Source of the DNA: Bacteroidaceae bacterium
GTDB taxonomy: Bacteria > Bacteroidota > Bacteroidia > Bacteroidales > Bacteroidaceae
Reading direction: 5' to 3'
NCBI GenBank assembly: GCA_017534815.1
Contig: JAFXVS010000068.1
Coordinates: forward strand, 1-40,186
DNA length: 40,186 nucleotides
Under the pieces are notes generated by a model, which was not told where the DNA came from, made no database searches, and saw nothing but the letters and a program-made list of their open reading frames with translations. This document shows, one piece after another, positions 485 to 37,459 of the stretch. Made by a program: the position numbers and the translations under genes. Position 1 is the first letter of the stretch. Each line of letters begins with the position of its first letter.

Positions 485-811
485 ATGACAGACCAAGAAT
501 TTTATCAGGAAGAGTTTATCGTGCTGTTGACGATAGACGGCACGTCTTACGACGAGATTGAAGTGAAAGTGACTGATCCGAACAGAACGATTCGTGACCA
601 GATTAACAGCATCGTGCAGGTGTTCGAACTGCCTAAGATGGACAACGGAGGCAACCCCATCCAGTACCTGTTAGGCAAACTGATGGAGGACGACGAAGAG
701 CCTGCTATTCTGGAATTTGAAGATGAAAACGGCCGTGAAATGGCGCTGATCGACTACGACATTCAACCCATGGATCACCTACACCTCATCTCTGTGCCCA
801 TCGCTGGGTAA
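485..811 (+). CDS. Ubiquitin-like modifier protein, YukD-like beta-grasp fold
   Basis: A 108-residue protein with the pattern of a beta-grasp fold. A two-strand hairpin spans residues 9-28, a helix covers about 36-48, and then come a polar insert and a final strand pair ending HLHLISVPIAG. The stretch ALIDYDIQPMDHLHLI matches the 'L-x-dy-gI-x-dGD-x-L' pattern near the end of YukD-like and ubiquitin-like domains. The chain stops directly after a single Gly, so the carboxylate needed for adenylation is exposed without processing. Directly downstream are an E2, then a JAMM protease, a RING protein and an E1, which makes a role as a conjugated modifier very likely. Family assignment rests on pattern and neighbours; the substrates are unknown. 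The acidic insert at 70-77 (MEDDEEPA) is unusual compared with ubiquitin. Confidence 0.8.
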   Translation: MTDQEFYQEEFIVLLTIDGTSYDEIEVKVTDPNRTIRDQINSIVQVFELPKMDNGGNPIQYLLGKLMEDDEEPAILEFEDENGREMALIDYDIQPMDHLHLISVPIAG

Positions 812-848
812 TGCATTCTCTCAAACTTAATTTCTAAAACACAAAGAC

Positions 849-1511
849 ATGAATCCTGCAATCAAGAATTTTGACGAGAAAGATTTGTCAGGTCGCGATG
901 CGCGTCTGCTTCAGGAGTGGAAAGAACTCGATGCTGTGTGCACCAAACGCAGAGCCTCCAGTCCAGACATCCGCAAGCCTTCTCTCTCCTATATCATACG
1001 CCGTAAGAACGCGACAGGACTGCCTACTGAGTATGAAATCTGGTATCGCGTGAAATCCATCATTGGTGTTGAGGACACGGAACCACCCCGTAAACCCATC
1101 TTTGGCAATCTGCACAAGATGAGTGTAGTGCTACCCAACAACTACCCATCGGCTGATGGCAACCCCGTTTTCACATTCATTACGGACATCTGGCATCCAA
1201 ACATCCGCTATTCCGGTAGCTTCAAAGGACATGTTTGCCTCACCATCAAGGAGATGGGCGTATTGGCATCCATCAAGGACTTGGTGCTGCGCGTAGAGCG
1301 TTATCTGAAGTATCAGATGTATCATGCCCAAAACACCTATCCCTACCCAGAAGACCAGAGCGTGGCAGAATGGGTACGCGAGGAAGGCGAACCTAACGGT
1401 TGGGTGAAGTTCACGCAAGACACACCTGAACCAGAGGCACCCAAGCCTGTTGTGGAGACACCTGCGGAAGAGGCAAAACCCGCGAAGCCCAAGATTTCCT
1501 TGAGCATCTGA
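849..1511 (+). CDS. E2 ubiquitin-conjugating (UBC-fold) enzyme
   Basis: 220 residues. The core has the classic E2 signature: a YP strand region at 99-100, then WHPNI at 115-119 and, eleven residues after the Asn, GHVCL with the catalytic Cys130. The HPN tripeptide (116-118) supplies the Asn that supports the isopeptide reaction in canonical E2s. The UBC fold covers about residues 18-165. Before it is a short N-terminal helix, and after about 185 there is a flexible Pro/Ala/Glu/Lys-rich tail. The enzyme should accept the upstream ubiquitin-like protein from the E1 encoded at 8017 and pass it to a target, probably with the RING protein at 5594. It is cytoplasmic, with no signal peptide. The spacing of 37 bp from the modifier gene supports co-transcription. 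The fold assignment is strong; the partners are inferred from context. Confidence 0.9.
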   Translation: MNPAIKNFDEKDLSGRDARLLQEWKELDAVCTKRRASSPDIRKPSLSYIIRRKNATGLPTEYEIWYRVKSIIGVEDTEPPRKPIFGNLHKMSVVLPNNYPSADGNPVFTFITDIWHPNIRYSGSFKGHVCLTIKEMGVLASIKDLVLRVERYLKYQMYHAQNTYPYPEDQSVAEWVREEGEPNGWVKFTQDTPEPEAPKPVVETPAEEAKPAKPKISLSI

Positions 1512-1571
1512 TCTTTACCTCTGATTTTAATGAATCATCTTACTAATGACCCATTAACACCTATCACCAAC

Positions 1572-2630
1572 ATGAGAAGAACTGTTCTATTCATATTCAC
1601 ATTCTGCCTCTTCAGCCTCATTGCAATGGCCGACGAGCAGAAGAAGGTGCTTCTGAGCAATGATCAGAGCGAGCAGACAATCCAATTGGGCTACTGCAAC
1701 ATCTTTACAAAACTGAACGCAGATGATGAGTCTGGCACCGTGAGCATCGATTTGGAGAACCTTGATGAGTCAAAAGTCCTCATCGTTTTCGATCGTGCCT
1801 ATCCAGAAAAGGTCATCAAGAAAATGTCTAAGTCGATGTCTATTGTTTATGACAAGACCTTTGGCGGCAAGGCCAAGAACCGACTCATTGACCCTTGTAC
1901 CACTCCGATGGAAGGAGTGCAACTGGTCAACCCATCGGACAAAGCCCAGCTGACAGAAGTGACAGTGACCAATGGAGAAAATTCCGTGTGCCTTATCCCC
2001 ATCTACATTGCCAAGCAGAAAGGGAAGAAAGTGATGTTGCTGGAGAAGCAACTTATTGAGCTGAACATCGAAGCAGACCTGAAGCCGAGCGCTGAGTATG
2101 TGGCGATGGAGGACAAGTACACGGCTCTTGAGAAGGAGATTGGTCGCCAGATATTCTGCCCTAATCCCAAGCACAAGACCTCATTGGAAAAGCAGGAAGC
2201 TCCTTATGTGAAGAAGATAGCGGACATGAAGGCTGAGATTGACCAACTCATCGCTTCGCACAATTGGAAAGAGGAAGATGGTGGATACATCCGCTATACT
2301 GCTCTAAAGAACAAACTCGACGCCATTGATTTGAGTAGTCGTGAACGCGATTGCGGACGCCATAAAGGCGGTGGTGGTGCAAGTGGTCACAGCTGTTCCT
2401 ACTGCTCCTTGTCACTCCAGCAAATTTATCACAAGATGGATGATTACTACAAAAAGATCTACAGCAGCAGCGACCGCAAAGCAGCCAAAGCCAAGGTCAT
2501 CAAGGAGGTGAATGCACTCTACCAGTGCTGCACAGATCCTTCCTGCAGTAAACACGCCTCTGCATGGAAGAGCGGAGGTGAGTACAAAACTAAAATCATC
2601 GAACGCTACAACCGCATTTCCAACTTATGA
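1572..2630 (+). CDS. Secreted Cys-rich protein, paralogue of the next gene
   Basis: The open frame begins at 1530, but the ATG at 1572 gives a clean signal peptide (MRR, a hydrophobic stretch, then AMA before DEQ), so I choose it; this leaves 352 residues. The mature N-terminal half looks like a beta domain related to the one in the next gene: both carry an 'IPIYIA..(K)GK' / 'LPIYLA..EGK' strand followed by a basic strand. The C-terminal half is helical and has a Cys/His cluster (SGHSCSYCSLS, then QCC-TDPSCSKH) that could bind zinc or form disulfides in the periplasm. I do not recognise a named family. It sits between the E2 and the membrane proteins of the cluster, so it is probably a periplasmic part of the same envelope complex. 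Confidence 0.75.
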   Translation: MRRTVLFIFTFCLFSLIAMADEQKKVLLSNDQSEQTIQLGYCNIFTKLNADDESGTVSIDLENLDESKVLIVFDRAYPEKVIKKMSKSMSIVYDKTFGGKAKNRLIDPCTTPMEGVQLVNPSDKAQLTEVTVTNGENSVCLIPIYIAKQKGKKVMLLEKQLIELNIEADLKPSAEYVAMEDKYTALEKEIGRQIFCPNPKHKTSLEKQEAPYVKKIADMKAEIDQLIASHNWKEEDGGYIRYTALKNKLDAIDLSSRERDCGRHKGGGGASGHSCSYCSLSLQQIYHKMDDYYKKIYSSSDRKAAKAKVIKEVNALYQCCTDPSCSKHASAWKSGGEYKTKIIERYNRISNL

Positions 2631-4138
2631 CAATGCGCTTTTTCAAACTTATCTGCATAGGTGCGTTTGCCCTCAGTAGCGTGACTGCCTCTGCCAAAGA
2701 AGTGAAGGATACGCTCTACTCCAACTCTGGCGATCGCATCATCCTCACCTATAATGTCACCCATTCTGGCAATCAGATGAGCGTCCGCTTCACGGGTGCC
2801 CAAAAGAAACTCGGCCAAGGCAACCAGAAAAAGTACAAGAAACTAGACGAGGTTGCAGTGGTGTTCTTCGACCGCAACGGCAACTACCAGGACATGAAAT
2901 TCGACGGTATGGAAACCCGAGCCTTCATGGTACCAGCCAATGTGACTTATTCCCGTTCTGGAGATGGTTACTTCCTCATCAACGACAATCCCTCTCTGCA
3001 ATTCACAGTGGCACAGAACGAAGATGCCGTACTGAATCTGCCTATCTATTTGGCAAGTTACGAAGGAAAACGTCACTACAAAGTGTTCACCCAATGTGGC
3101 ACACTTGCCTTGAGTAGCAAGCAGACAAAGAAAAGTGGTGGTAGCCAAGGAGGTGGTAGCCGAAGTAACGGGGGAGGTGGCGGCGATATTCATGCTGCCA
3201 ATGCTGACAATATCCAAATAGAGGGCATCACCTCTGAAGAACTTGTGGATGAGGGACTTTCTCCGTCAGAAGAAGCGCTTATTCGCATCAATGGCGTGAA
3301 GTCCATGCTGGAGGAGGCTACAGAATATCCCTTCGATGAGGAACTGACACATGAAGTGTCCATGTTGCGCGAACTCCGTTTCAAGGTCACTGATGACGAG
3401 GACGTCAGCAAGCAGATAACAGAGGTGCTCGCACTCTACGACTCCAAGAAGAAAGAACTGGCTGGAGCTGCCAAAGCTGATCAGCAGGCACAAGCAGCAC
3501 AGCAAGCTCAAGCAGCACAAGCCGCTCAGGCACGAAGTGACTCCATCTCGGCTGCTCAGATTCTTCAGTCAGAGGAAGACAAAAAGAATATGATGTGGAT
3601 TGGAGGCGGCGTTGGTGCGCTGGTGCTTCTCTTCTTAGGTGGCAAGCAAATCATGCAAATGGTCAATCAGAATAAGCTCCAAAAGCAACAAAAGGCCATG
3701 ATGGAGAATATGATGAAGATGAGCCAGCAACCAACGAATCCTATGGCAAATATACCTGGCTTAAATGGTGTGTCAGGTGTGCCTGGAGCAGACGGAATGC
3801 CAGACCTTGCCAATTTAAGTGGAGCAGCTGCAGCTGTTCCAGGCGTGAAAGAGGCTCAACAAGCCATCCAAAACGCTAAGTCAACGGCTCAACAAATGCA
3901 GCAACAGACACGTACTATGAGCAAAGAAGCAGAGGCCGCTAAACAGAAGCTGATGAGCATGAGAGCTGCCAAACAAGGACAGGTTGACCCTGCTGCAGGG
4001 CCAGCCACACCATCACAAGGGGTAAACAACTCACACTCTGTGGCGACAAAACCTCAAGCGCACTCTTCCCTCAACGATGCCATTCCTGCTAAATTCAAAC
4101 GTCTGGCACCCAAACGAAAAGACACACCCAATACCTAA
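2627..4138 (+). CDS. Membrane protein: periplasmic beta domain, one TM helix, cytoplasmic coiled coil
   Basis: The ATG at 2627 overlaps the previous stop (ATGA), which suggests translational coupling; the ATG at 2633 is an alternative start. An N-terminal signal peptide ends near TASA (residue about 23). A beta-rich domain follows to about 160, paralogous to the previous gene's N-terminal half, then a Gly/Ser linker (about 166-187) and a helical Glu/Ala/Gln-rich section. A transmembrane segment starts at about residue 322 (MMWIGGGVGALVLLFLGG). The rest, about 160 residues, is rich in Met, Gln, Ala and Lys, probably a cytoplasmic helical tail. This single-pass layout resembles an envelope scaffold linking periplasm and cytoplasm. 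No named family is recognised. Confidence 0.75.
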   Translation: MTMRFFKLICIGAFALSSVTASAKEVKDTLYSNSGDRIILTYNVTHSGNQMSVRFTGAQKKLGQGNQKKYKKLDEVAVVFFDRNGNYQDMKFDGMETRAFMVPANVTYSRSGDGYFLINDNPSLQFTVAQNEDAVLNLPIYLASYEGKRHYKVFTQCGTLALSSKQTKKSGGSQGGGSRSNGGGGGDIHAANADNIQIEGITSEELVDEGLSPSEEALIRINGVKSMLEEATEYPFDEELTHEVSMLRELRFKVTDDEDVSKQITEVLALYDSKKKELAGAAKADQQAQAAQQAQAAQAAQARSDSISAAQILQSEEDKKNMMWIGGGVGALVLLFLGGKQIMQMVNQNKLQKQQKAMMENMMKMSQQPTNPMANIPGLNGVSGVPGADGMPDLANLSGAAAAVPGVKEAQQAIQNAKSTAQQMQQQTRTMSKEAEAAKQKLMSMRAAKQGQVDPAAGPATPSQGVNNSHSVATKPQAHSSLNDAIPAKFKRLAPKRKDTPNT

Positions 4139-4166
4139 TAACACTCTTCTCACACATTTTGACACA

Positions 4167-5582
4167 ATGAAAAAGAAACTTTTCTTATTCTTTTTAGTTG
4201 GCATCCTATCTGCAGGCTTTAACGTAACGTCGGCAAAGGAAGTGGAAAACGCCGTCATCATCTCAGCCTTCCGCCAACATATCGAATCCATTCCCTATCT
4301 GAATGAAGCCAACATGCAGACGCTGAATGCAGAAATCAGCGAGCATGTGAAGTGCTTGCAAAACTGGTCAGACAAGGAAGCATACATCAAAGACCATGAA
4401 CTTCAAGATTATCTGGATCGTCAAAAAGGCTCTCTAAAATACTATCAGAACAGTTCTTATGCCATGATTGATGACTTCCTGTTGCAATACGCAGATCAAG
4501 GCATTGAGAACGAGCAGGCCTGCCGAGATAGTCTGATGGCAATTCTCAACGATCGTACCGGTATGTGTGAAACCAACCTCAACCTATTGGAAAGAGAACT
4601 GAACAACAAAGAGGAGCAATCATTCCTCGACACCATCAACTGGACATGGGTAATTATCGTAGCAGTCCTCTTGGTCTGCATTATCTTGTTGATCTCGCTG
4701 TCAGGAAAGAAGCAGAAGGGCGTTGTTCCACAGCCTAAGCCCAATCCTTCCAATGGAGGTTCAAACGGCAACACAGCCGGTATTGTCGTACGTCGCAAGA
4801 CTGCCACCATTCTCAAGAAGCAAAGTCTGGAGGATGTAATGGAGAACCCTGCCTATCTGAAAGTGGATGCTATTGACTTCTGCGAAGAATCTGCTGTCAG
4901 AAGACTCTATATCAAGAACACATGCATCATCGATTTATACAACATGTACGCAAGTGACTTGGCCAATCCCAACAATGCCAAGGAGAATGGTTGCATGGTA
5001 TTGGGTCGATGGGTTCATGACACTGAGTCAGGCGAGTACTATGTATCACTTGAACATTTGGTGATGCCAGGCGACGATGCTGTCTTTAAAGAGTATGAGT
5101 TGAACTTTGGTGGAAAGATCAAGTTGAGCGTGCTGGAGCAACTGCGCCGTTTGCGCCGTGAGACCAACATGCAGTATGACCTCACCTGCTGGGTACATTC
5201 TCACCCTGGATTGTCTGTATTCTTCAGCAATTCCGACCTGAGTGTACAAATGCAGTTGAAACACCCGACTCACCCCAATTTCCTTACCGCTTTAGTGGTC
5301 GATACACTCACCCCAAAAGAAGATGTGGGCATCTTCACCTTCCGTCGCGATGGTAACATCAACTCGAAGAATGAACTGACGAAGATGTATTCACTCAAAG
5401 AATGGTATGCATGGGCACAGAAGAGTCTGAGGGAAACCGCTGCAGCACCAGAAGCACCTGCAGCGCCCGAAACACCTGCCGCACCTCAGGATTCTGCCAC
5501 ATCTACCCCTGAAGTGTCATCAACGGTGTCTTCCACCACGACAGCATCTGATGGAGCCAGTTATCAATATTCCAGCAACTAA
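4167..5582 (+). CDS. Membrane-anchored JAMM/JAB-domain isopeptidase (deubiquitinase-like)
   Basis: The frame opens at 4077, but the ATG at 4167 begins a typical signal peptide (MKKKLF plus hydrophobic core, ending TSA), so it is taken as the start (471 residues). Residues about 25-155 are an all-helical, presumably periplasmic domain. A transmembrane helix spans about 159-181. The JAB fold lies at about 225-410, with a complete JAMM zinc motif: H344-x-H346, seven residues, S354-x2-D357 (HSHPGLSVFFSNSD). The upstream catalytic Glu is probably near EHL in the strand before. The tail is Ala/Pro then Ser/Thr rich. In the family these metalloproteases cleave ubiquitin-like proteins from targets or trim precursors. 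Here the modifier already ends in Gly, so deconjugation is more likely than maturation. The predicted topology puts the protease in the cytoplasm. Confidence 0.88.
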   Translation: MKKKLFLFFLVGILSAGFNVTSAKEVENAVIISAFRQHIESIPYLNEANMQTLNAEISEHVKCLQNWSDKEAYIKDHELQDYLDRQKGSLKYYQNSSYAMIDDFLLQYADQGIENEQACRDSLMAILNDRTGMCETNLNLLERELNNKEEQSFLDTINWTWVIIVAVLLVCIILLISLSGKKQKGVVPQPKPNPSNGGSNGNTAGIVVRRKTATILKKQSLEDVMENPAYLKVDAIDFCEESAVRRLYIKNTCIIDLYNMYASDLANPNNAKENGCMVLGRWVHDTESGEYYVSLEHLVMPGDDAVFKEYELNFGGKIKLSVLEQLRRLRRETNMQYDLTCWVHSHPGLSVFFSNSDLSVQMQLKHPTHPNFLTALVVDTLTPKEDVGIFTFRRDGNINSKNELTKMYSLKEWYAWAQKSLRETAAAPEAPAAPETPAAPQDSATSTPEVSSTVSSTTTASDGASYQYSSN

Positions 5583-5593
5583 AGAATAGAACA

Positions 5594-7978
5594 ATGATAA
5601 AGAAACTATTGTTGATGGGCGCCTTGTGCGCTATGGTGCTGCAGGTGGCAGCACAAGACGTGTCGCGAATTGAGTTCTGCGACAAGAAATACGAGTATGG
5701 AATCGGACGTGACAGCATTACACTGTTCATGAAAGTGGTAGATTCTGAAGGTAAATCCTGCAAGGAACTATCACCCAGCGACTTGGAGAAATATCTGGTC
5801 ATATATGAGGACAAAGCCATCATTGCACCTGATCGCCGACAGATTTCGTTCGTAAGTTCTGGACAAAGAATTCCGTCAGACTTCACCTTCTCTGTGCTAG
5901 TCGATCTGAGTATTCCAGAAGAGGGGAAAGGTCAGATTTATGAAGCGTTTGGTCAATTGGTGGAAAGTGCTCCAGACAGCAGTGTCTATCTTTCCTTCTT
6001 TGGTGATGACGTGACAACCAGTCAATTAGTGACAAAACAAAATCTGAAGAATTTTGAATCGAAATTCAAGACACACTCAGAGAATAAATATTTCTATGGA
6101 GCACTCTATGCTAAATTGGCGGAGTTCAATGCCACAGGTGCGGAAATGGAAAGCGAAGTGAGCAAGGCGGAGGATTACACCCGCAATGCTGCTATCACAA
6201 CTCGTGCTCAACGCGCAAAAGACAAAAACATCCTGTTTGTCTTCACTGAGGGTAACAAACGTCCAGACGATGAAGCCATCTCATTCATTGAGGTGACAGA
6301 CTATCAGTCCGACGCATCGAAGCTGGTGCCACGAGTTTATGCTTTCTATTATACAGGTGAGGGCATGGATGAGAACGTCGAATTGACCTTACAAGGCGTT
6401 TCTGCTCCCCGCGATGCCAACGGCAAAGTGTTGAGCGACCGCAAGGGTTCCTATATCCCATCTGCCGACCTCGGCAATGTTTTGGCTAACTTCCAACAGG
6501 TGGTGAAGGACGCCATGTATGACTTTGCGTTCACTTATCGTGCAACAGAAGGCAAGGCATATACAGGACGAGTATCTTATTCTGCAGAATGGAAAGGAAT
6601 GGAGGCAGGAACGGGTGACTATTCCATCGGTACAGCTGAGACACCTTGGCCATTGCATGAAGAAAGTGCCGGCGACACTGTAACGAAGTTCTTGGTGGCA
6701 CTACTTGTAGCCTTCCTGACCATTGTTTTCTTCTTCCTCGTGATGAAGGTGCTGGTGCCATTCTTCAAGTCGAAGAGCTTTGAATCGAAATATTATAAGA
6801 AATATGTGCCCGAAGAGAATGTGCAGCGTCGCATCTGTACCTATTGCCGTCAGAATATTGAGCCTGGACAATTGGTTGTAACGAAGTGCAAACACATCAT
6901 CCATGTGAACTGCTGGCAGCAGAATGGTTACAAATGCGTGGAGTATGGTCAGAACTGCAAGGATGGTATTCAGGAGCATGTAGATTTGAAAGACATGTTC
7001 AGTGCCTCATCCATGAGAGAAAGCATGCAAGTGTTCTCTGGTATTGGTGCTGGTCTCGTCAGCTGGATTATCTTCGAACTGACGGGACGTGGTTTATTCC
7101 CATTCATCGGTGACCTCTTCGCCAAGACTTTCTTCCTGAATCAAGAACAAGCAGGCAACTTCTTCGATGACTGTTCTGGTAAGGTCTCAGCCTTCTTGAC
7201 GGTAGGTCTTTTGTTAGGTTTCTTCCTCTCATTGGTGTTCCGCTTCAACGACGAATACCGCAATAAGAGTGCCTTGATCTACCTGAAGATTTTCGGTCTT
7301 TCACTGCTCACTGGTCTCATCGGCATGATTGCTATGGCCATAGGTGGCATCATCTTCTGTCTACTCCTGTCGGCAGTTGGAACCACGTATATTCCTTGGT
7401 ACTGCTCATTGCCTGCCTATATCCTATTCTCTATCTGCACGGCATTGAGCCTCACCATCAAATCATCCATTCCTTTGAAGAGTGCCTTCCTTGGCGGTCT
7501 CTGCTCAGCAGTCATTGGTTTCATCGTGCTCTACTTCAGCGGCAGCATCAGCGGCAAATACGGATGGATGAACATGTTGCTCGACTTCATCATCTATGGT
7601 GGTGGACTGGGTGCCTCCCTCGTGACTGTACGTATGTTGGCTGAGAAATACTTCCTTGTCATCAAGAACGGCGTGAAGGCTGGTCAGCGTATTCCAATCC
7701 ACAAGTGGATGAACGCTACAGGAGGCGGCAAGAAGGTGTCTATCGGTATGACAGGCGAATGCGAAGTGCAGATGAACTGGGAGAAGAGCAGCAAGGTGGC
7801 AAAGGAACATGTGCAACTCTATATCGATCAAGTCAAGACGTTGCCAATGGTGAAGCCACTCGCTCCAGGCGTCATCTACAATGTGCGTTCAGAACTCACT
7901 GTAGGCAAACCGATGATTCTCTCGAATGGCGATACCTTCAAGATAGGTGACACCATCTTTGAATACGAAGAACAATAA
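5594..7978 (+). CDS. Multi-domain membrane protein: VWA, RING-H2 and FHA-like (candidate E3)
   Basis: 794 residues. A signal peptide (cleavage after VAA, about residue 20) precedes a periplasmic VWA-like domain (about 95-260) with a weakened metal site (DLSIP in place of DxSxS). A transmembrane helix lies at about 362-390. Next comes a zinc module with all eight RING-H2 ligands in order: C415-x2-C418-x13-C432-x-H434-x2-H437-x2-C440-x7-C448-x6-C455. The last knuckle is C-x6-C rather than the usual C-x2-C. Several hydrophobic helices follow (about 475-690). The C-terminus (about 705-794) matches an FHA fold (SIGMTGECEVQM, then SSKVAKEH, then NGDTFKIGDTIFEY). The usual FHA Arg after the Gly is Met719, and the usual Ser-Arg pair is Ala736-Lys737. 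It lies 11 bp after the JAMM gene. A role as membrane E3 coupled to kinase signalling is inferred. Confidence 0.85.
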   Translation: MIKKLLLMGALCAMVLQVAAQDVSRIEFCDKKYEYGIGRDSITLFMKVVDSEGKSCKELSPSDLEKYLVIYEDKAIIAPDRRQISFVSSGQRIPSDFTFSVLVDLSIPEEGKGQIYEAFGQLVESAPDSSVYLSFFGDDVTTSQLVTKQNLKNFESKFKTHSENKYFYGALYAKLAEFNATGAEMESEVSKAEDYTRNAAITTRAQRAKDKNILFVFTEGNKRPDDEAISFIEVTDYQSDASKLVPRVYAFYYTGEGMDENVELTLQGVSAPRDANGKVLSDRKGSYIPSADLGNVLANFQQVVKDAMYDFAFTYRATEGKAYTGRVSYSAEWKGMEAGTGDYSIGTAETPWPLHEESAGDTVTKFLVALLVAFLTIVFFFLVMKVLVPFFKSKSFESKYYKKYVPEENVQRRICTYCRQNIEPGQLVVTKCKHIIHVNCWQQNGYKCVEYGQNCKDGIQEHVDLKDMFSASSMRESMQVFSGIGAGLVSWIIFELTGRGLFPFIGDLFAKTFFLNQEQAGNFFDDCSGKVSAFLTVGLLLGFFLSLVFRFNDEYRNKSALIYLKIFGLSLLTGLIGMIAMAIGGIIFCLLLSAVGTTYIPWYCSLPAYILFSICTALSLTIKSSIPLKSAFLGGLCSAVIGFIVLYFSGSISGKYGWMNMLLDFIIYGGGLGASLVTVRMLAEKYFLVIKNGVKAGQRIPIHKWMNATGGGKKVSIGMTGECEVQMNWEKSSKVAKEHVQLYIDQVKTLPMVKPLAPGVIYNVRSELTVGKPMILSNGDTFKIGDTIFEYEEQ

Positions 7979-8016
7979 CAGCCAAACAAACATATTCACC
8001 AACAAACTCATTTCCT

Positions 8017-9219
8017 ATGGCTGAAGTGAAACTGGCTTACGAATGGGGCGACGGGGTCTATACCCTACTCTCCTGGTTCAAGAAAGAAAAAGTGAAGGAT
8101 GCACGGGTGCTCGTGGCTGGTGCTGGAGCATTGGGCAACGAAGTGGTGAAGAATCTGGCGCTCTTCGGTGTGGGGCACATCTATGTGGTCGATTTCGACC
8201 AGATAGAAATCTCCAACCTGACCCGTTCTGTCCTGTTCCGCGAAGAAGATGCTTACAGCCATGCCTTCAAGGCTGACATCGTAGCCAAACGGGCGATGGA
8301 GATCAACCCACAAATCAAGGTCACCCCCATTGTGGGCAACCTCTTCTCTGAAGTTGGCTTCGGCTTATACAACTCTGTCGATGTTGTCATTGGTTGTCTC
8401 GACAGCCGCATTGCCCGTTACCAACTCAACCGTCTCTGCATGCGAGCTGGTAAGACATGGATTGACGGCAGCATAGAAAACATGACGGGTGCTGTGAGGG
8501 TTTATGCTCCAGGCAAGAGTTGTTATGAGTGTGGGCTTTCACGTGAGGAGTTTAACAATATCATGCTTCGAACAGGTTGTGCCGATGTGGTTCGTACACA
8601 AGGTAAGGCTGGTCGTATTGCCACCACACCCATCAGTGCCTCCATCGTAGGTGCTATGCAGGTGCAAGAAGCCATGAAGGTCATCCACCAAGAAGAGGGG
8701 CAAGAAACGCCATTCAAGACCTTAGAGGGTAAAATGCTACGCTACGAAGGCATGACCAATACGATGAACATCTACAAGTTTGCCTCGTGGAAAAGTAGCT
8801 GCCCAGCACATGAACGATGGGACAAAATCACGCAAGGCATAGAGCTTTCAGCCACACAAACTGTTGCACAAGTGCTAAAGAAGTTGAAGGACGCACTCAA
8901 TGCAAACATGGTGGAAATCAACATGCGCAACAACAAATTCATTGACAAAATCATCTCAGACCATCCTGAGAAAGAGTTTGAGGTGATGATACCAGAGTCA
9001 AAACTCGATGCCTACATCAAACAGAATGAGGAATTGCGCAAACTTAGTTACCGCACGTTGTTCCATAAGCACTTTTACGAGAATATCGACAAGTCTTTCC
9101 CATATAAAAATCTGACGCTCCAACAGATTGGCATTCCACTTTTCGATGTTATCGAAGTGTCAACGGACAAAGGAGTATACCATGTGGAACTGACGGAGGA
9201 TGCCCGTCTATATCAATAA
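8017..9219 (+). CDS. E1-like ubiquitin-activating enzyme (ThiF/MoeB/UBA fold)
   Basis: 400 residues, cytoplasmic. The adenylation domain has the nucleotide motif GAGALG (35-40), the SNLTRS element that follows the acidic strand, and GCLDS. A structural zinc site is visible as C169-x2-C172 and C262-x2-H265. C188 (in TGCADV) lies where MOCS3/Uba4 proteins have their catalytic Cys, and is the best candidate for a thioester with the modifier. About 15 extra residues separate it from the following helix. After residue about 270 there is a 130-residue C-terminal extension. Its last strand region (IGIPLFDVIEVSTD) resembles the ubiquitin-fold domain that recruits E2 in eukaryotic E1s. Together with the neighbouring E2, this makes a true E1-E2 relay more likely than sulfur transfer. 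The gene ends 2 bp before the next ATG. Confidence 0.9.
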   Translation: MAEVKLAYEWGDGVYTLLSWFKKEKVKDARVLVAGAGALGNEVVKNLALFGVGHIYVVDFDQIEISNLTRSVLFREEDAYSHAFKADIVAKRAMEINPQIKVTPIVGNLFSEVGFGLYNSVDVVIGCLDSRIARYQLNRLCMRAGKTWIDGSIENMTGAVRVYAPGKSCYECGLSREEFNNIMLRTGCADVVRTQGKAGRIATTPISASIVGAMQVQEAMKVIHQEEGQETPFKTLEGKMLRYEGMTNTMNIYKFASWKSSCPAHERWDKITQGIELSATQTVAQVLKKLKDALNANMVEINMRNNKFIDKIISDHPEKEFEVMIPESKLDAYIKQNEELRKLSYRTLFHKHFYENIDKSFPYKNLTLQQIGIPLFDVIEVSTDKGVYHVELTEDARLYQ

Positions 9220-9221
9220 AG

Positions 9222-10118
9222 ATGCAAGAAAAGGTGACCTTACCACAACTGCTGCCTGCTGACATCAATGCCGAGTTGCTCTTGGCATATTACCCAGAGG
9301 GTGCCTGCAAAATATCGTTCAGTGGTTTACACAAACGTAACACCTATAACGATATTGTGGACATGGAACATTTGTCAAATGAGGCTATACACCTCACGCT
9401 TAGCCGCAATAGTCTTTACAATGCGCTCCCAGAGTACATGTTCCACCCCATCGACCGCTTTGACAACTTACCCAAATCAGAAGAGAAAGAGCGTTTCGAA
9501 CAAGAACTGGAGAAACAAGCGGAAGAGATTGCCAATGCCTACAAATTCTTCGCACCCATTGACATCCTGCTGTTCCGTCTAAGATCACAAGTGAGGGAAA
9601 AGGTCGAAACCTACGCCAAGGAAAATGTTATCATACAACAAATTGTGGGAGACACCATCACACCACAGCAATACAGCAACCGTTTCATTCAGAAACTGCT
9701 GCCCTATCTTCCGCAATGCAGACTGATCCGTGGCAACAAGACATTGCTCACGCTGATGCTCAGAAAGATTTTCCTTGAAGAAGGCCTTCGCATCCGTCCG
9801 GAAACACACTCCCTTCCTCAGCATGATGAATATCCACGCTATTCAGACAGCCTTGATATGGAGGTAGGCGACGGTTTCTTGGGACGAGATTATGATGACA
9901 CGGTGACAACATACAGTATTCAGTATTGGAACGAACAGGAATGTAGTGAAAACTTATTCCACCTTCTTGACGAGATAGAAGAACTCCGACTGTTTGTGCA
10001 AGATTACTTTCTGTCTGTCGAGGAAGAATTACGTTTCGACATTTCTCACGATGAAGCGCCAATGCAGCTGACAAATACAGACTCTTCTCATTATCTTAAT
10101 TATAACATCAACATCTAA
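9222..10118 (+). CDS. TssG-like T6SS baseplate component (tentative)
   Basis: 298 residues, no signal peptide or membrane helix. The stretch ANAYKFFAPIDILLFRLR (about 107-124) resembles the 'A-x-FF-x-PfD-x-x-lf-x-R' region of TssG-like proteins of Bacteroidota T6SS. A 'LLPYLPQCR...TLLTLMLRKIFLEE' region follows, typical of the segment leading to the TssG helix-strand repeats. The main support is position: the next three genes resemble TssK, TssE and TssF, and TssG is the remaining member of that baseplate wedge and adaptor set. It begins 2 bp after the E1 stop, so the conjugation and baseplate genes are in the same transcription unit. An unrelated adaptor is possible. Confidence 0.5.
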   Translation: MQEKVTLPQLLPADINAELLLAYYPEGACKISFSGLHKRNTYNDIVDMEHLSNEAIHLTLSRNSLYNALPEYMFHPIDRFDNLPKSEEKERFEQELEKQAEEIANAYKFFAPIDILLFRLRSQVREKVETYAKENVIIQQIVGDTITPQQYSNRFIQKLLPYLPQCRLIRGNKTLLTLMLRKIFLEEGLRIRPETHSLPQHDEYPRYSDSLDMEVGDGFLGRDYDDTVTTYSIQYWNEQECSENLFHLLDEIEELRLFVQDYFLSVEEELRFDISHDEAPMQLTNTDSSHYLNYNINI

Positions 10119-10133
10119 CATCTATACCATATT

Positions 10134-11108
10134 ATGTCAAAAAGAATTTGCTGGAAAAAGGGCATGCGCCTTACCGACGAAGTATTACTCGCTGCCGACA
10201 AATGTACAGCCGAAGCCATCAGCCAATCGCTCATGCTGGCATCTGCTGGACGTTTTGGTCTGCTGCCCTCGTTACGCCCATTCCAATTATCACTTAACAT
10301 TGCCAGTGGATATGTCGAAGTGACGCATCTTGACCTATTGGCCATCACACGAGCTGGCGATGTCATAGACCTCAACTTAGCTGGAGGTATTACTGACACA
10401 TCCAACACCCATATTCCACTTTCCAATGACGAGGAAGAATTGTTCTTGACCGTCAATGTGCAGTCTGAGGCGTGGAAAGATAACGAAGATGGTTATATGG
10501 AGCCCACCTATACGTTTGAGCTCGTCACTCCTCAAAGTGCCCTTTCTGAGCATGCGATGCCTATAGCCCACCTCATACACAATGGTGAATGGGAGGAGGA
10601 CACTACTCGTTTCCTACCTCCAGCCCTCTATCTTTCAGGACATCACCGTTGGGATGAGTTACGTGTTCAATTAGTGGACATACTGAAAAGCATTTGCGAA
10701 AAGACAAAACCACAAGCCCAATCGCTTGTCAAGACAGCCGTCAGTATCTATTGGCCCATCGTACAGAAGGAACTGATTAAAGCCAACACTGAGCATGAGA
10801 CCATGACACCTGCTACGTTGTTGGGAAGTATCCAGAACGTAGTGGGAGGTTTTGCGATAGCCTGTGAAGTGGACGAAATCCTGACATTGGAAGATGCCAC
10901 CATCTTCTATAATTTCACTCAGGTTCCGTACAACTACCAGAAAGCATATCTGCGCATTAAGCAGGGCATTGGCATGTGTCGCGCCATCAACGAAAAGATT
11001 GACAAGTTCAGTCTCTTGAGCGCACCACCAAAACCAGAACCGGAGCCAGCTCCTAAACCAGAACCCAAACCAGATCCACGTCGCAGTTGGTTAGGTAAGC
11101 AAATATGA
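10134..11108 (+). CDS. TssK-like T6SS baseplate/membrane adaptor
   Basis: 324 residues. The N-terminus (KRICWKKGMRLTDEVLLAAD) fits the TssK signature 'W-x-x-GM-x-L', followed by the FGLLPSLRPF element and the strand VEVTHLDLLAITRAGDVIDL, as in TssK of Bacteroidota T6SS. TssK links the baseplate to the membrane complex through a C-terminal domain, which here would be about residues 190-300. The protein ends with a Pro/Glu/Lys repeat (PEPEPAPKPEPKPDPRRSW). It is shorter than the proteobacterial TssK (about 440 residues). Its stop codon overlaps the next start (ATGA). The call rests on motif resemblance and neighbours. Confidence 0.65.
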   Translation: MSKRICWKKGMRLTDEVLLAADKCTAEAISQSLMLASAGRFGLLPSLRPFQLSLNIASGYVEVTHLDLLAITRAGDVIDLNLAGGITDTSNTHIPLSNDEEELFLTVNVQSEAWKDNEDGYMEPTYTFELVTPQSALSEHAMPIAHLIHNGEWEEDTTRFLPPALYLSGHHRWDELRVQLVDILKSICEKTKPQAQSLVKTAVSIYWPIVQKELIKANTEHETMTPATLLGSIQNVVGGFAIACEVDEILTLEDATIFYNFTQVPYNYQKAYLRIKQGIGMCRAINEKIDKFSLLSAPPKPEPEPAPKPEPKPDPRRSWLGKQI

Positions 11109-11602
11109 AATTCATCAGCACGCCATTGGTCTTCATCAACGATGGGTCACAAATGTTGCGTAACATTGAAGACCGTATCACCATGCTTGATAATCTGGTG
11201 GAGCTCATTGTATTCACGCCTCGTGGCAGTTTCGAGTCCGACCCTGACTTTGGCTTTGAGTATTGGAACCACGAGTTTTCCAATGTTCACTACCGTGAGT
11301 TCAACACCAACCAGAGTGGCTTAGCGATGCAGGGGGGGCTGAAAAATGAGGTGACACGCAAAGAATGCGAAGAAAGCATACGTATCAGTCTTGCCACTTA
11401 CGAGCCCATGCTTAAACAGGTGACCGTATCTATACAACTCGACTCGGCTGTGGCGAAACAACGACGCAAACGACGCATCGCTTCCAAATACGAGGTGAAT
11501 GTCATTGTAGAAGGAAGACTCGACGACGGACTGGGCACCATGCAACCCTATCACAAAAGCGTTGTGTTCTTGGTGGAACCCACCGTGCGGTGCAACCGAT
11601 AG
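11105..11602 (+). CDS. TssE/gp25-like baseplate protein
   Basis: 165 residues. It shows the gp25/TssE pattern. An N-terminal strand-helix segment leads to LVELIVFTPRGSFESDPDFG, where R-G-S-x-x-x-x-PDFG fits the conserved 'pGer-x-x-PdfG' loop. A central helix with IRISLATYEPMLK follows, where Y-E-P is the hallmark of the gp25 core, and then the strands VTVSIQL and YEVNVIVEG. In contractile machines gp25/TssE sits where the sheath meets the baseplate wedge and nucleates sheath assembly. The start overlaps the TssK-like stop, and the TssF-like gene begins 63 bp downstream. No sheath gene lies within the window. Confidence 0.75.
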   Translation: MKFISTPLVFINDGSQMLRNIEDRITMLDNLVELIVFTPRGSFESDPDFGFEYWNHEFSNVHYREFNTNQSGLAMQGGLKNEVTRKECEESIRISLATYEPMLKQVTVSIQLDSAVAKQRRKRRIASKYEVNVIVEGRLDDGLGTMQPYHKSVVFLVEPTVRCNR

Positions 11603-11665
11603 TTTTTCTTTTACATTCATTCTTTTTCTCTTCTCAAATCACAACAAATCTTCTTCCCATCATAT

Positions 11666-13456
11666 ATGGACGTAGAATTAGAAAAAGGTATCAACGAGGC
11701 AATGGCCGCTTTGCGCCAACTCTCGGTCGGCAACATCGACTTTTCCCAGCTTGACCCTGTGGCCAAGATGATGATTGTCACCCTTGTCTCTGAAACCAAG
11801 AAAATAAATGACTATGTGGACAGCATGGGACAAAGGCTCGTGGAGCGCTTCTGCACCGATTTCATACCCAGAAAGAAGGTGGAGGCTATGCCTGCCGTTT
11901 GTGTGCTCTGTCCTACACTCAAGAAGGGTTACGACGAGGCCATCAGCTATGTGGGGACAGATTCCTCCTTTGCCTACAAAATACCTCAGAGTAAGTCTCC
12001 ATTAGACTACATCCCTATCTTCAACACAGCCATCCTACCTCATAAAAGCCTCTATCTCATTACTCCCAACAAACTGTGGAGCGAGGAAGGTACGACGCGC
12101 ATTAAGATGCCCAAGACTAACCAAATATGGCTGGGTATCCGCACCCGTACTGAGGTTGATTGCCTCAAAGGGCTGTCTCTCTTCATCAAGGGCACGAACG
12201 GCATCACCCCAACGCATATATGCAGCGGCATCGATGACCATGAACTCGACTTTGCCACCATGCTGGAGATGGAAAACATTGAGATGGCGGAGCCTTTTGA
12301 CGCTCAGCAGACATCTGGACAGTTCTTCTCCTTCGTGGAAAGTTGGAAAGAATGCCTTCTGGCGATACCAGGAGCCGCTCTGATTTATTTGACCGATGAT
12401 ATTGTGGATCGCGATCACTTCAAACATCGTGCCTACCCACGTGTCTTCCAAGAATGGTTGGATAATGCCGTTTTAGAACAGCTCGACCCCTCCACCATTT
12501 GGCTTCGCATCGACTTTCCCGATGATTACGATGTGCCTGACACTTGTCAGATCCTGCTCAACGCTATGCCTGTGACCAACATTGATGTGTGTGACCTCAC
12601 CTTGACCCAGACACAGCCCATCGCCAAACTGCAGAATCAGGAGAATGCTTATTTCTTACGCATTTTGGAGACAAGCACAGATGCGCTTCAACAGGGTTTC
12701 AATTCCACCAACGACGAAATCGTGGTGCGCGATTTTGATGCAGCCTGCTACAGCAACGACGACCTCTATCGCGATGTGCGCAACTTATACAATCGCTTTA
12801 TCGATGATTACTATGCTTTCATCGAATACAATGGAATCAAGGATGGTGAGGTGCTGAAACAGTTGCGCGAGACCATCAACAAACTGGGGAAGAGCGTTGG
12901 TCAGCAAAATACAAAGTACAAGTTCGATAGTGGCACTTTCGTCATGAAGAACATGAATCAATACCCACCTTCACTCTCCACCAAGGTCACTTACCTGACC
13001 ACGATGGGCAAACTCGGCAATGCCCCTCAACGAGGAGACACGATGGAGAACCGCAAGCAACCTTGCCTCGAACAAAAGGTGAGCGTGCTCGTTGGTGCCA
13101 CAGGTGGAGCAGATAAGGCTACAGCCGACGAGCGGTATGAACTTCTCCGATACTATGCCTTGACTGGTGACCGTCTCTATACAAAAATGGACATCGATGC
13201 CTATCTACGCAAAGAGATACTCGCTGAATTTGGCAAAGACGAATTCAAACGTATCTTCATTAAGATCAGCATCGAGGGAACTGGCAACGAAAAGAATCTG
13301 CAACGTGGTCTCTACATTGACATCGAGTTCAAAGACCGCAAGAACTATGAACAGGCATGTGCCACATCGTTCGACCGACTGATGCAACAACGCATCACAA
13401 ACAAGTCGTGCATCGCCATGCCTATCATTGTCACATTAACAAACTTGGACGAATGA
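11666..13456 (+). CDS. TssF-like T6SS baseplate wedge protein
   Basis: 596 residues, about the usual TssF length. The N-terminus has the 'l-x-x-x-L-x-P-x-x-x-x-x-P' region (RLVERFCTDFIPRKKVEAMP) that opens TssF proteins. The middle contains IWLRIDFPDD followed by ILLNAMPVTNIDVCD, fitting the family's 'l-x-N-x-x-PvvN' signature. The C-terminal part has repeated beta strands (VSVLVGATGG, RIFIKISIEG). In T6SS, TssF dimers with TssG form the baseplate wedge together with TssE. The intergenic stretch before it is T-rich, and its stop codon overlaps the start of the following hydrolase gene. The four baseplate-like genes are in the order G, K, E, F. Confidence 0.7.
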   Translation: MDVELEKGINEAMAALRQLSVGNIDFSQLDPVAKMMIVTLVSETKKINDYVDSMGQRLVERFCTDFIPRKKVEAMPAVCVLCPTLKKGYDEAISYVGTDSSFAYKIPQSKSPLDYIPIFNTAILPHKSLYLITPNKLWSEEGTTRIKMPKTNQIWLGIRTRTEVDCLKGLSLFIKGTNGITPTHICSGIDDHELDFATMLEMENIEMAEPFDAQQTSGQFFSFVESWKECLLAIPGAALIYLTDDIVDRDHFKHRAYPRVFQEWLDNAVLEQLDPSTIWLRIDFPDDYDVPDTCQILLNAMPVTNIDVCDLTLTQTQPIAKLQNQENAYFLRILETSTDALQQGFNSTNDEIVVRDFDAACYSNDDLYRDVRNLYNRFIDDYYAFIEYNGIKDGEVLKQLRETINKLGKSVGQQNTKYKFDSGTFVMKNMNQYPPSLSTKVTYLTTMGKLGNAPQRGDTMENRKQPCLEQKVSVLVGATGGADKATADERYELLRYYALTGDRLYTKMDIDAYLRKEILAEFGKDEFKRIFIKISIEGTGNEKNLQRGLYIDIEFKDRKNYEQACATSFDRLMQQRITNKSCIAMPIIVTLTNLDE

Positions 13457-14469
13457 ACACACCTTTCTCGGTGATACGACACCTCTGCACGGCATGCCTC
13501 CTTTGCTTCTTCAGCATCGGGACATTCGCACAATCCTCTGCCGACATTCAGGAATACATCCGCCTGTACAGCAAGGCTGCGCTTGACCAAGAACGTGCCT
13601 TTGGCGTTCCTGCCTCCATCACCTTGGCACAGGGCATCCTTGAGTCGGGAGCGGGCAAAAGTGGATTGACACGCAACACCAACAACCACTTCGGCATCAA
13701 AGCATTGGGTGGATGGAATGGCCCTGTGTATTACGCTTGGGATGACGAACCCAACAAGAGCAAGTTCCGTGTCTATGCCTCGGCTGCCGAATCGTTTCGC
13801 GACCACTCCGAATTTCTGAGGAAAAACAGCCGCTACCAAAGTCTCTTCTCCAAGAGCGTCTATGACTATCGCGGCTGGGCCATCGGACTGCAGAAGGCAG
13901 GATATGCGACAGCCAAGAACTATGCGGCGGCACTCATCGGATTTATCGATGCGTACCGCCTTTATGCTGTTAATGGCGGCGTGAAACTCAAGGCAGGCAA
14001 GACTGTCATTGTAACCACCACGCCATCAACGGCTTCCGGAGGTACGACAGCACGACCCGTCTTCGATGCCTCTTGTCAACAGGATGAGGAGGAAGCCTCC
14101 GAAGAGGAAGAGAGTGTGGGAAATGCCATCCGCCGTTACGTTGTCGATATCAACGACGTGCGCTGCACTATCCTCTATCCAGGCATGACACTTTCATCCA
14201 TCGCCATGAAGTATGATATTCCCAAGCAGAAATTGCTGGAGTATAATGAGACCACCAGCGAAGATGATTTGAAGGAGGGCGACATTGTCTTCATCGACAA
14301 AAAGAAATCGAAATATACAGGCGCAAAAGACTTTCATCATGTAAAAGCCGACGAGACCATCTACAGCATTTCTCAAGAATACGGCATCAAGATGGAGAGT
14401 CTGATGAAGATGAACAAGTTAGATCTCTTTTCGCGTCTGAAAGAAGGTGATAAAATAAGACTGAAATAA
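13453..14469 (+). CDS. Secreted peptidoglycan hydrolase: glucosaminidase (GH73-type) with two LysM domains
   Basis: The ATG at 13453 overlaps the TssF-like stop (ATGA) and starts a signal peptide ending TFA before QSS; the frame extends upstream to 13357, but that start lies inside tssF. The mature protein has a glucosaminidase domain (about 30-180) with the signature ITLAQGILESGAGKSGL, in which E64 is the likely catalytic acid. A Thr/Ser-rich and acidic linker follows, then two LysM repeats: about 235-280 (ILYPGMTLSSIAMKYDI) and about 292-338 (HHVKADETIYSISQEYGI). It would cut glycan strands in the periplasm. Its place after the baseplate genes suggests it opens the wall for an envelope-spanning complex, as dedicated hydrolases do in several secretion systems. 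Confidence 0.88.
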   Translation: MNTPFSVIRHLCTACLLCFFSIGTFAQSSADIQEYIRLYSKAALDQERAFGVPASITLAQGILESGAGKSGLTRNTNNHFGIKALGGWNGPVYYAWDDEPNKSKFRVYASAAESFRDHSEFLRKNSRYQSLFSKSVYDYRGWAIGLQKAGYATAKNYAAALIGFIDAYRLYAVNGGVKLKAGKTVIVTTTPSTASGGTTARPVFDASCQQDEEEASEEEESVGNAIRRYVVDINDVRCTILYPGMTLSSIAMKYDIPKQKLLEYNETTSEDDLKEGDIVFIDKKKSKYTGAKDFHHVKADETIYSISQEYGIKMESLMKMNKLDLFSRLKEGDKIRLK

Positions 14470-23393: not shown

Positions 23394-26750
<3,357 letters not shown>

Positions 26751-37239: not shown

Positions 37240-37267
37240 TTGGTTAATAAAAAAAGTTGTATATTTG
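37240..37267 (+). promoter_or_regulatory. Promoter of the riboswitch-btuB-cbiK unit
   Basis: A TTG (37240-37242) and TATATTTG (37260-37267) are separated by 17 bp, matching the Bacteroidota housekeeping promoter. Transcription would begin around 37272-37275, just ahead of the riboswitch. Confidence 0.75.
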
Positions 37268-37280
37268 CCGCCGAAATTGG

Positions 37281-37440
37281 TAATCGTGCGACGCTTTTGC
37301 CGCATCGACGCAAGGGAATCCGGTGTGAATCCGGAGCTGTACCTGCAGCTGTAATCCCCTCTTTTAACGTCTGCTCACAACAAGCCACTGATGAATCGGG
37401 AAGGCGAACGGACAGGGGGAAAGCCAGAAGACCTGCCAAG
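37281..37440 (+). ncRNA. Cobalamin (B12) riboswitch aptamer
   Basis: The conserved core is plain: AAGGGAATCCGGTGTGAATC (37312-37331), the following GGAGCTG stem, GCCACTG (37384-37390), and the B12 box AAGCCAGAAGACCTGCC (37421-37437). It precedes a TonB receptor gene, the standard target. Cobalamin binding is expected to lower expression of the receptor and cbiK. The exact outer stem boundaries are approximate. Confidence 0.95.
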
Positions 37441-37459
37441 ACACATGAATTGATGTACA

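Follow-up and report, generated by a model that had tools for sequence, protein, structure and literature searches.

Can a contractile injection machine carry a ubiquitin-like conjugation pathway of its own and, if so, what would the pathway do there? The question is raised by the window analyzed here, which is the whole of contig JAFXVS010000068.1 from a Bacteroidaceae bacterium (assembly GCA_017534815.1; 40,186 bp). In it the genes for a ubiquitin-like modifier (Ubl), an E2 conjugating enzyme, a membrane-anchored JAMM protease, a RING E3-like protein and an E1 activating enzyme run into those for TssG, TssK, TssE and TssF, the baseplate proteins of a type VI secretion system (T6SS). We predict from these sequences a Bacteroidales T6SS with its own ubiquitin-like conjugation pathway, for which searches of open-access papers turned up no earlier description. 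The E1-E2-RING-Ubl-JAMM set is complete and conserved in the T6SS cluster as judged by sequence. As to its role, we lean towards licensing or regulation of baseplate docking by a cascade at work on the inner membrane, both the substrate and the activity being presumed. In what follows G numbers denote genomes (G000 is the window's own, the window being its contig G000:C2) and L numbers denote loci of relatives.

Linkage of the conjugation and baseplate genes

A collection of 84,980 species genomes was scanned with an E1 alignment, and the best 80 of 87 relatives were kept; the scan patterns were derived from T6SS-linked E1s, and the collection therefore leans towards T6SS-linked loci. At least 1 kb of downstream DNA was present in 68 loci, in 67 of which TssG comes directly after E1 (64 by strict distance; L046, L066 and L080 have an upstream-shifted open reading frame [ORF] start), L033 being the only locus without it. 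This co-location is beyond chance. A RING gene lies upstream of E1 in 64/65 loci, the Ubl is present in 56/56 and TssE in 62/64, and the order E2-JAMM-RING-E1-TssG-TssK-TssF is retained in 59 of the 61 loci that are long enough. The two misses are L033, a cascade without baseplate genes, and L078 (genome G242), whose locus is divided between contig C30 (Ubl, E2, sheath genes) and contig C2 (E1, baseplate). A sequence-only reading of the window had joined the two gene sets in one transcription unit and expected them to travel together; related genomes bear this out. Gene sets that lie apart were met only at the edges, namely in stand-alone cascades, in a T6SS devoid of the cascade (G301) and in L033/G258. 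The last keeps its cascade genes, the baseplate genes do not adjoin them and TssC was not found in the genome, for which decay or a gap in the metagenome assembly is a possible cause.

The 70 close loci (L019-L087 and L089) were placed in the Bacteroidales, except for L039 and L047 (Bacteroidia) and L083 (Bacteroidetes). The stand-alone L088 (41%) was set aside, and L090-L098 are distant ThiF-type proteins (27-35%). L077, L078 and L082 belong to the same genomes as G178, G242 and G046 of another collection. The cascade T6SS also occurs in named strains, i.e., Barnesiella sp. An22, Palleniella intestinalis and Xylanibacter muris.

No leftward extension is possible on the contig, and sheath, tube, VgrG and ClpV genes, which had been expected on that side, were sought elsewhere. 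All eight relative loci examined at full length encode ClpV, TssB, TssC, Hcp and VgrG, in other words the ATPase, sheath, tube and spike of a complete T6SS; in G046 the matches are strong (TssC 1.9e-170, TssD 1e-33, Phage_base_V 3.7e-25). In the window's own genome Hcp, TssC, TssB and ClpV lie at the edge of another contig, G000:C4. The near relative G248 has one contiguous cluster, from ClpV through the Sel1-repeat gene. TssC was found in 40 of 44 cascade-set genomes, the exceptions being G247 (L019), G258 (L033), G274 (L062) and G288; these 44 comprise the window's own genome and 43 behind the E1-scan loci (42 with a T6SS-type cascade, including L033, and the stand-alone L088/G288).

Three features of these T6SS loci may be recorded. 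A TssD (Hcp) domain ends a 669-aa protein with a long N-terminal extension in G248 (G248:C44 78805-80814), and two TssC genes stand in tandem in one genome (G269:C2 43930-48885). In Barnesiella sp. An22 (G278:C1 606173-608877) a gene for a Tle1-like phospholipase effector, with a DUF2931 neighbour, lies between the spike and Ubl genes, so that at least this relative looks armed.

The genes of the window's cluster are as follows.

2..445, + strand: C-terminal piece of a spike-tip fusion protein of the PAAR-like (DUF4280) type, truncated at the contig edge (assigned by position and ORF matches)
485..811, + strand: Ubl modifier of 108 aa, ending in PIAG at the stop codon (Ala-Gly ends of relatives; weak ubiquitin/YukD matches)
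849..1511, + strand: E2 with HPN motif, Cys130 and a low-complexity tail ending in Ile (UQ_con 1.5e-6)
1530..2630, + strand: P1530, secreted or periplasmic protein with conserved cysteines, related to P2627 (signal-like hydrophobic start)
2627..4138, + strand: P2627, envelope protein with a signal-like start, one transmembrane segment (TM) at about 321-343 and a tail after it (hydropathy, alignment)
4167..5582, + strand: membrane-anchored JAMM protease; the mechanical ORF starts at 4077 (Prok-JAB 0.002, TM)
5594..7978, + strand: RING E3-like membrane protein with a vWA-like N-terminal region, a TM, a C3H2C3 RING, further TMs and a possible FHA-like C-terminus (RING 0.0018)
8017..9219, + strand: E1 with a C-terminal extension, Cys188 and a CxxC...CxxH site (ThiF 5.1e-52)
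9222..10118, + strand: TssG baseplate protein (hhalign to canonical Bacteroidales TssG 4.9e-31)
10134..11108, + strand: TssK baseplate/adaptor protein with a low-complexity tail ending in Ile (TIGR03353 3.5e-4, hhalign 1.1e-24)
11105..11602, + strand: TssE, gp25-like baseplate protein (GPW_gp25 3.8e-6, TIGR03357 0.0013)
11666..13456, + strand: TssF baseplate protein (hhalign to canonical TssF 1.1e-45)
13453..14469, + strand: LysM-domain glucosaminidase, a peptidoglycan-remodelling enzyme; the mechanical ORF starts at 13357 (Pfam 1.5e-35, 1.9e-16)
14519..16012, + strand: Ser/Thr kinase with one TM (Pkinase 7e-42)
16069..17835, + strand: WG-repeat-like secreted protein (WG_beta_rep 2.2e-4, below cut-off; signal-like start)
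17873..18733, + strand: PP2C-type protein phosphatase (PP2C 6.9e-18)
18733..19593, + strand: Sel1-repeat protein, the last gene common to the G248 cluster (Sel1 3.5e-57; 94.8% identity in G248)

The ORF coordinates confirm the tight packing noted at the outset: 2 bp separate the E1 stop (9219) from the TssG start (9222), TssK and TssE overlap by 4 bp and the baseplate genes otherwise follow with overlaps or short gaps. From the left end to 19593 every assigned gene is on the + strand, and no gap exceeds 63 bp. Past Sel1 the run on this strand takes in two permease genes and one DUF5020 gene and reaches 22985; the end of the cluster was set at Sel1 because G248 carries other genes beyond that point. 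Promoter and terminator scans gave numbers near those of shuffled sequence (24 vs 21.2; 19 vs 17.7). The first ORF (2-445) matches the same ORFs in L019, L038, L050 and L051, which carry a PAAR-like domain, and the gene at the equivalent position in G248 matches DUF4280 (2.7e-20); by position and relatives' ORFs, and with no domain match of its own, it most probably represents the tail of a DUF4280 fusion of the PAAR-like type. Downstream, the glucosaminidase/LysM gene was found in 60 of the 93 sources searched, many of which are too short to reach that far, the Ser/Thr kinase gene in 57/93 and the PP2C gene in 29/93. Outside the cluster the window has a cobalamin riboswitch at 37261-37454 (Rfam RF00174, 83 bits), and 23394-26750 encodes a 1118-aa protein, a 47% relative of which also lies near the T6SS cluster in G178.

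Identity of the conjugation and baseplate proteins

Pfam matches, together with motifs that are complete in relatives, uphold the assignment of E1, E2, RING, JAMM and Ubl. The window E2 (UQ_con 1.5e-6) and E1 (ThiF 5.1e-52) match directly, and Prok-JAB (0.002) and RING (0.0018) fall under the Pfam cut-off with their motifs complete. Residues were counted over the relatives' rows, which include the stand-alone G016 and, where found, L088. In E2, C130 and H116 are each kept in 65/65 rows and the HPN motif is present in the alignment; in E1, C188, C169 and C172 are kept in 73/73 and C262 and H265 in 72/72. E303, H374, H376 and D387 of the JAMM protein (numbered from 4077), which we take to be its JAMM residues, occur in 67/67 rows, and for each of the eight zinc ligands of the RING at most one of the 69-70 rows departs. 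Catalytic roles are presumed from the families. Against solved structures the RING protein profile matches RING-H2 at 0.001 and the E1 profile matches UBA1 and MoeB. The C-terminus of the RING protein reaches only 0.44 against chain 6hc1, presumably an FHA domain, and the G046 relative of this protein matches VWA (1.7e-5), for which the window protein itself gave no match. A cofactor-type MoeB/ThiF role for E1 was considered and rejected: the NCBIfam MoeB/ThiF models are far under their cut-offs, and E2, RING and JAMM accompany E1. L079 (G284:C25 21012-22140) has two E2-like genes in tandem after the Ubl.

The Ubl ends exactly in Ala-Gly in 60 of 61 T6SS-type relatives; the sole exception, L023 (Ubl near 2.3 kb), has four residues beyond Ala-Gly, which a JAMM could remove. 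Four of 23 family members match Pfam ubiquitin (best 1.3e-3) and three match YukD (best 4.6e-4), while the window Ubl alone matches neither. Searched against the PDB, the Ubl profile finds only ubiquitins, ubiquitin variants or fusions among the best 60 of 236 matches, mostly over some 22 C-terminal residues, with tandem ubiquitins inflated and single units at about 0.004-0.1; a PDB search with the single Ubl sequence gave nothing useful. A beta-grasp fold is likely. These complete active-site residues and the Gly-ended Ubl are what a working E1-E2-RING-Ubl-JAMM cascade would show.

P1530 has three invariant cysteines (C210, C289 and C333) and its profile matches that of P2627 at 3.1e-10; against solved structures it gave nothing but one match at 0.25. 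Hydropathy places signal-like starts on the P1530, P2627, JAMM and RING proteins, one TM each in P2627 and JAMM, and in the RING protein one TM before the RING domain and several after. The RING and JAMM domains would then have to lie on the cytosolic side, where both could meet E2 and the Ubl. The ratio of nonsynonymous to synonymous substitution rates (dN/dS, NG86) between the window and L020 runs from 0.00 (Ubl) to 0.12 across 15 genes, and that between the window and L022 from 0.01 to 0.17 for 13 genes, two being not computable. From these low values the genes are under purifying selection.

Family models alone bear out part of the baseplate assignments. TssE matches GPW_gp25 (3.8e-6; 27.0 bits against a cut-off of 27.2) and TssK matches TIGR03353 (3.5e-4; 19.8 bits against 100); window TssG and TssF match no T6SS family model. 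PF06996 was found in 0/21 TssG relatives, and it found no TssG in the window's own genome either, unlike the profile comparison; PF05947 was found in 4/21 TssF relatives (best 2.8e-11). Profile-profile comparison (hhalign) with canonical Bacteroidales proteins recovers TssG (4.9e-31), TssK (1.1e-24) and TssF (1.1e-45), and one of the canonical TssGs so compared (G019) matches PF06996 at 8.9e-6. The relative in G046 matches family models directly for TssK (6e-12), TssE (4.6e-9) and TssF (PF05947, 8.1e-7). All four baseplate proteins of a T6SS are thus accounted for, TssG through profile comparison only. The TssK profile matches solved TssK structures (1.2e-4), and those of TssF and TssG found no credible solved structure. 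A missing head domain of TssK, whose domain layout we assume, was tried as a clue and dropped, as canonical Bacteroidales TssK aligns over 22-376 of 405 positions.

Relationship to known systems

The nearest described machine is T6SS subtype iii with its TssNQOPR membrane complex (PMC10781749). Its TssC (PF17541), TssD (PF17642), VgrG, ClpV and TssE/F/G/K are homologous to those of the cascade T6SS, in which TssL was likewise not found. Passages of the study that describes it place tssN systematically between tssK and tssG and report TssNQOPR, whole or in part, in all Bacteroidota T6SSs (443 systems from complete genomes; PMC10781749). The cascade loci differ: tssG is followed directly by tssK, and E1, E2, RING, JAMM and Ubl are in the operon. 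TssN was above cut-off in 0/44 cascade-set genomes, with three sub-threshold matches in ORFs of 691-700 aa, calls that need caution because the TssN model misses some canonical systems. TssO was above cut-off in 0/44 and below it in one (controls 3/3 positive); TssR was found weakly in 1/44 (G283; 30.8 bits, a 573-aa ORF on another contig), a weak test with only 1/3 controls positive; and TssP of G019 is the best match of no ORF in the full-length loci. TssL/DotU, part of the TssJ/TssL/TssM complex of subtype i, was found in 0/43 genomes (G288 left out).

In the TssC tree the 21 rows of cascade systems, which include two duplicates, are parted from the 8 rows of TssN systems by one branch supported at 100/100, and the TssF tree agrees (74/97). 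Since G046/L082 adjoins the TssN side in both trees, whether the cascade systems form a clade depends on the root. Among 393 genomes sampled evenly from the order, 18 have TssC, 8 have TssN above cut-off and 6 have E1 (1e-60), E1 and TssN never being together. Five of the six E1 genomes have TssC, and the sixth, G016, has a stand-alone cascade. The 18 TssC genomes divide into 5 with E1, 7 with TssN and 6 with neither, the latter being G301, G239, G290, G313 (a 6.6-kb contig), G316 (a fragment) and G374. The Bacteroidales T6SSs of G290 (C4 53682-64630) and G374 (C146 18170-29173) have TssG beside TssK, and neither TssN (Pfam) nor a cascade E1 was found there.

Across a draw of 326 genomes of the phylum, E1 was seen in four, namely the window's own, G499, G593 and G615. 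Stand-alone E1, E2, JAMM and RING modules occur in G016 (C685 1548-18543; L149), G499 (C65 103836-115669; L178 and L179), G593 and L088/G288; the Ubl was found in the first three and not in L088, and only Ubl and E1 were seen in G615. They have the same enzyme set as the window, including a JAMM protein with signal peptide and TM and vWA-RING proteins, and their E1s are approximately 41-43% identical to the window E1. TssC was not found in genomes G016, G499, G593, G615 and G288 (L088), and because such versions occur without it the module is older or broader than its use with a T6SS. The 20 rows of T6SS-linked E1s group together (92/79), with five stand-alone E1s beside them, a pattern that fits a single recruitment. 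Residues follow the last Gly in 3/4 stand-alone Ubls (G016, G593 and G615; G499 is the other) versus 1/61 of the T6SS type, as if the former needed processing. A 2011 study of prokaryotic RING fingers reportedly contained E1-E2-RING-JAB operons with YukD-like Ubls; the stand-alone module may already be known.

The logic of E1, E2, JAB/JAMM and Ubl-like proteins is common to Bil, Bub and CBASS (the cyclic-oligonucleotide-based anti-phage signalling system), and the E1 profile also matches Citrobacter BubCD (8.7e-9). The cascade differs from these in its single short Ubl, its membrane RING and JAMM and its location in a T6SS operon. BilA, in the passage at hand, has two consecutive Ubl domains (PMC11354881); the window Ubl is single, at 108 aa. 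Could the cascade nevertheless be a defence or stress module, as has been proposed for these three, that acts on phage or incoming toxins and shares only a promoter with the T6SS? In PADLOC E1 partly matches E1-E2 models (6.6e-15) and is the only one of the seven cascade proteins to match, the best 25 of 28 matches all being to such models. The kinase and phosphatase match mad6 (9.1e-49) and PDC-M21C (2.7e-10) over their catalytic domains, and one stand-alone relative adjoins STAND and ion-channel genes. Against this, PADLOC gave no match at 0.001 for Ubl, E2, P1530, P2627, JAMM or RING, the cascade is fixed between spike and baseplate genes in 59/61 loci, and neither an E1 relative in viral contigs nor a relative of the RING protein in plasmids was found. 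We regard defence as improbable; a phage or plasmid origin was likewise discarded, the viral-contig and plasmid searches being empty.

Ubiquitin-like folds are known from the YukD and EccD proteins of the type VII secretion system, and the Ubl weakly matches YukD; an EccD-like fold is also reported for TssN (PMC10781749, in part). The cascade Ubl differs in being free, in its conserved Ala-Gly end and in having a full conjugation cascade alongside. The sequence-only reading knew of no described contractile system whose baseplate operon has its own E1-E2-RING-JAMM set, and a full-text search confined to open-access papers turned up no T6SS described as carrying E1, E2 and RING genes of its own. 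A putative T6SS of Prevotella stercorea, detected only through added profile searches according to the part of that report used here (PMC4714493), could be of the cascade kind.

A proposed role for the cascade at the inner membrane

How, then, might the cascade serve the machine? E1 would charge the Ala-Gly end of the Ubl and hand the Ubl to E2, which, held via its C-terminal Ile tail, would work with the cytosolic RING of the membrane protein, the vWA-like part of which would face the periplasm. The Ubl would be joined to a protein located where baseplate and membrane meet, for which TssK or the envelope proteins P2627 and JAMM are the first candidates. Attachment would license or hold the docked baseplate, the membrane JAMM would remove the Ubl and so reset the baseplate, and the operon's kinase/PP2C pair may add a phosphorylation switch. 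The inner membrane is proposed as the site because hydropathy gives JAMM, RING and P2627 their TMs and signal-like starts. We favour this scheme because gene order (59/61) and the Ala-Gly end (60/61) are kept, catalytic residues are near-invariant and the genes are under purifying selection; because no match above cut-off was obtained for TssN, TssO or TssL (and a single weak one for TssR) and tssG adjoins tssK; because eight loci encode a complete T6SS and 40/44 genomes have TssC; and because cascade and TssN systems fall on different sides of the TssC and TssF trees and T6SS-linked E1s group together.

A further reason is that E2 and TssK have a C-terminal Ile in common. Among complete genes it ends E2 in 57/64, TssK in 59/64 and P2627 in 32/58 (36/43, 39/43 and 25/36 after thinning to 50 loci), against 9/176 for the remaining mechanically called ORFs of these loci, a set that certainly includes some false genes. 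The three tails are of low complexity and the positions before the Ile vary more than the Ile itself; it is found in 0/10 canonical TssKs, and the TssK of the cascade-less G301 also has none. The E2-TssK pair may represent a shared docking motif that ties E2 to the site of the baseplate adaptor. Clade-specific lysines were sought as well: TssK K8 and K9 are present in 62 and 61 of 68 rows, most of the distant rows listed being without them, and TssG K182, TssE and TssF were also examined. K8/K9 are weak candidates for a modified site.

Several observations weigh against the licensing scheme. Foremost is G301, a genome from the window's family, 99% complete, that is nested on the cascade side in the TssC and TssF trees (a long branch in both) and has a T6SS with neither cascade nor TssN. 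Its locus (G301:C1 332674-348974; L147) retains ClpV, TssB, TssC, Hcp, VgrG, a PAAR-like protein and TssG/K/E/F, and nothing but genes for a Tsi6-like protein and an M23 peptidase separates the PAAR-like gene from TssG. The cascade thus seems to have been lost cleanly, and no other observation speaks as strongly against its being needed in every case. G290 and G374 have neither TssN nor E1; the TssN Pfam model detects only 7/11 TssC genomes outside the cascade lineage (G301 and the fragment G316 left out); and stand-alone cascades adjoin SrfB/Virul_Fac genes in G016 and, in G499, genes for STAND and ion-channel proteins. Neither P1530 nor P2627 was recognised in L077, L079, L080, L082 and L083, where other proteins occupy their place, and the cassette proteins show no profile kinship to TssN/O/P/R, in a comparison whose TssO, TssP and TssR profiles held only one or two sequences. 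Lastly, Ile also ends TssG (42/68), TssE (23/63) and the secreted WG protein (19/34), most canonical TssGs ending in Ile or Leu too, and distant tail-less E2s have none; the docking reading of the Ile is therefore not specific. The gene arrangement first noted in the window is confirmed, and the interpretation then placed on it is partly supported: the gene identities, the common unit, the linkage in relatives and the presence there of sheath, tube, VgrG and ClpV genes are borne out, and modification of a baseplate, membrane or client protein to license or stop assembly, with reversal by the membrane JAMM, is a conjecture. G301 also has a separate zinc-ribbon/FHA protein downstream.

The G301 T6SS without a cascade and the L033/G258 cascade without TssC would suit a passenger, i.e., a relic or neighbour with no function in the T6SS. 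The near-invariant catalytic residues, the low dN/dS and an order kept across divergent families make such a passenger very improbable.

The cascade proteins might instead constitute the membrane complex, with P1530, P2627, JAMM and the vWA-RING protein replacing TssNQOPR and the conjugated free Ubl taking over the docking that has been proposed for TssN's fused ubiquitin-like domain. TssN, for which an EccD-like ubiquitin fold is reported, is also reported to contact TssK in the passages cited above (PMC10781749); it was not found in cascade genomes, three of 23 Ubls match YukD, the RING protein has a vWA-like region as has TssR, and no genome of the 393 has both TssN and E1. Yet G301 keeps its T6SS without cascade or TssN, no profile similarity links the cassette proteins to TssN/O/P/R or the Ubl to TssN, P1530 and P2627 go unrecognised in the five distant loci, and stand-alone cascades have similar membrane parts with no T6SS. 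An envelope anchor built by conjugation, in which a free YukD-like Ubl covalently replaces the docking domain fused in TssN and the membrane JAMM releases it, is thus a tentative proposal; we consider both it and the wholesale replacement of TssNQOPR rather unlikely.

Finally, the Ubl could tag secreted cargo (Hcp, VgrG, the PAAR fusion or effectors) for loading or quality control, JAMM stripping it before firing. The cascade does lie directly after the VgrG and PAAR-like genes, and after an effector gene as well in Barnesiella sp. An22; however, the genes from VgrG to Ubl vary by locus while the cascade is fixed, and a C-terminal Ile occurs in none of the 11 Hcp and 13 VgrG genes listed. A cargo tag seems to us unlikely, and licensing of the docked baseplate is retained as the preferred role.

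A conjugation-built anchor, if true, would represent a novel type of mounting for a T6SS and, to our knowledge, the first case of a ubiquitin-like cascade that assembles a bacterial secretion machine. Independently of the mechanism, bacterial ubiquitin-like cascades are discussed in the passages of the literature used here as defence or stress systems, and this one is tied to a contractile injection machine that spans many gut and rumen species. The cascade T6SS is at odds with the published presence of TssNQOPR, whole or in part, in all Bacteroidota T6SSs, as that statement stands in the passages cited (PMC10781749). It bears on the reuse of the ubiquitin fold in secretion machines (YukD, EccD and TssN), and it opens the function of a bacterial ubiquitin-like tag to direct testing by genetics.

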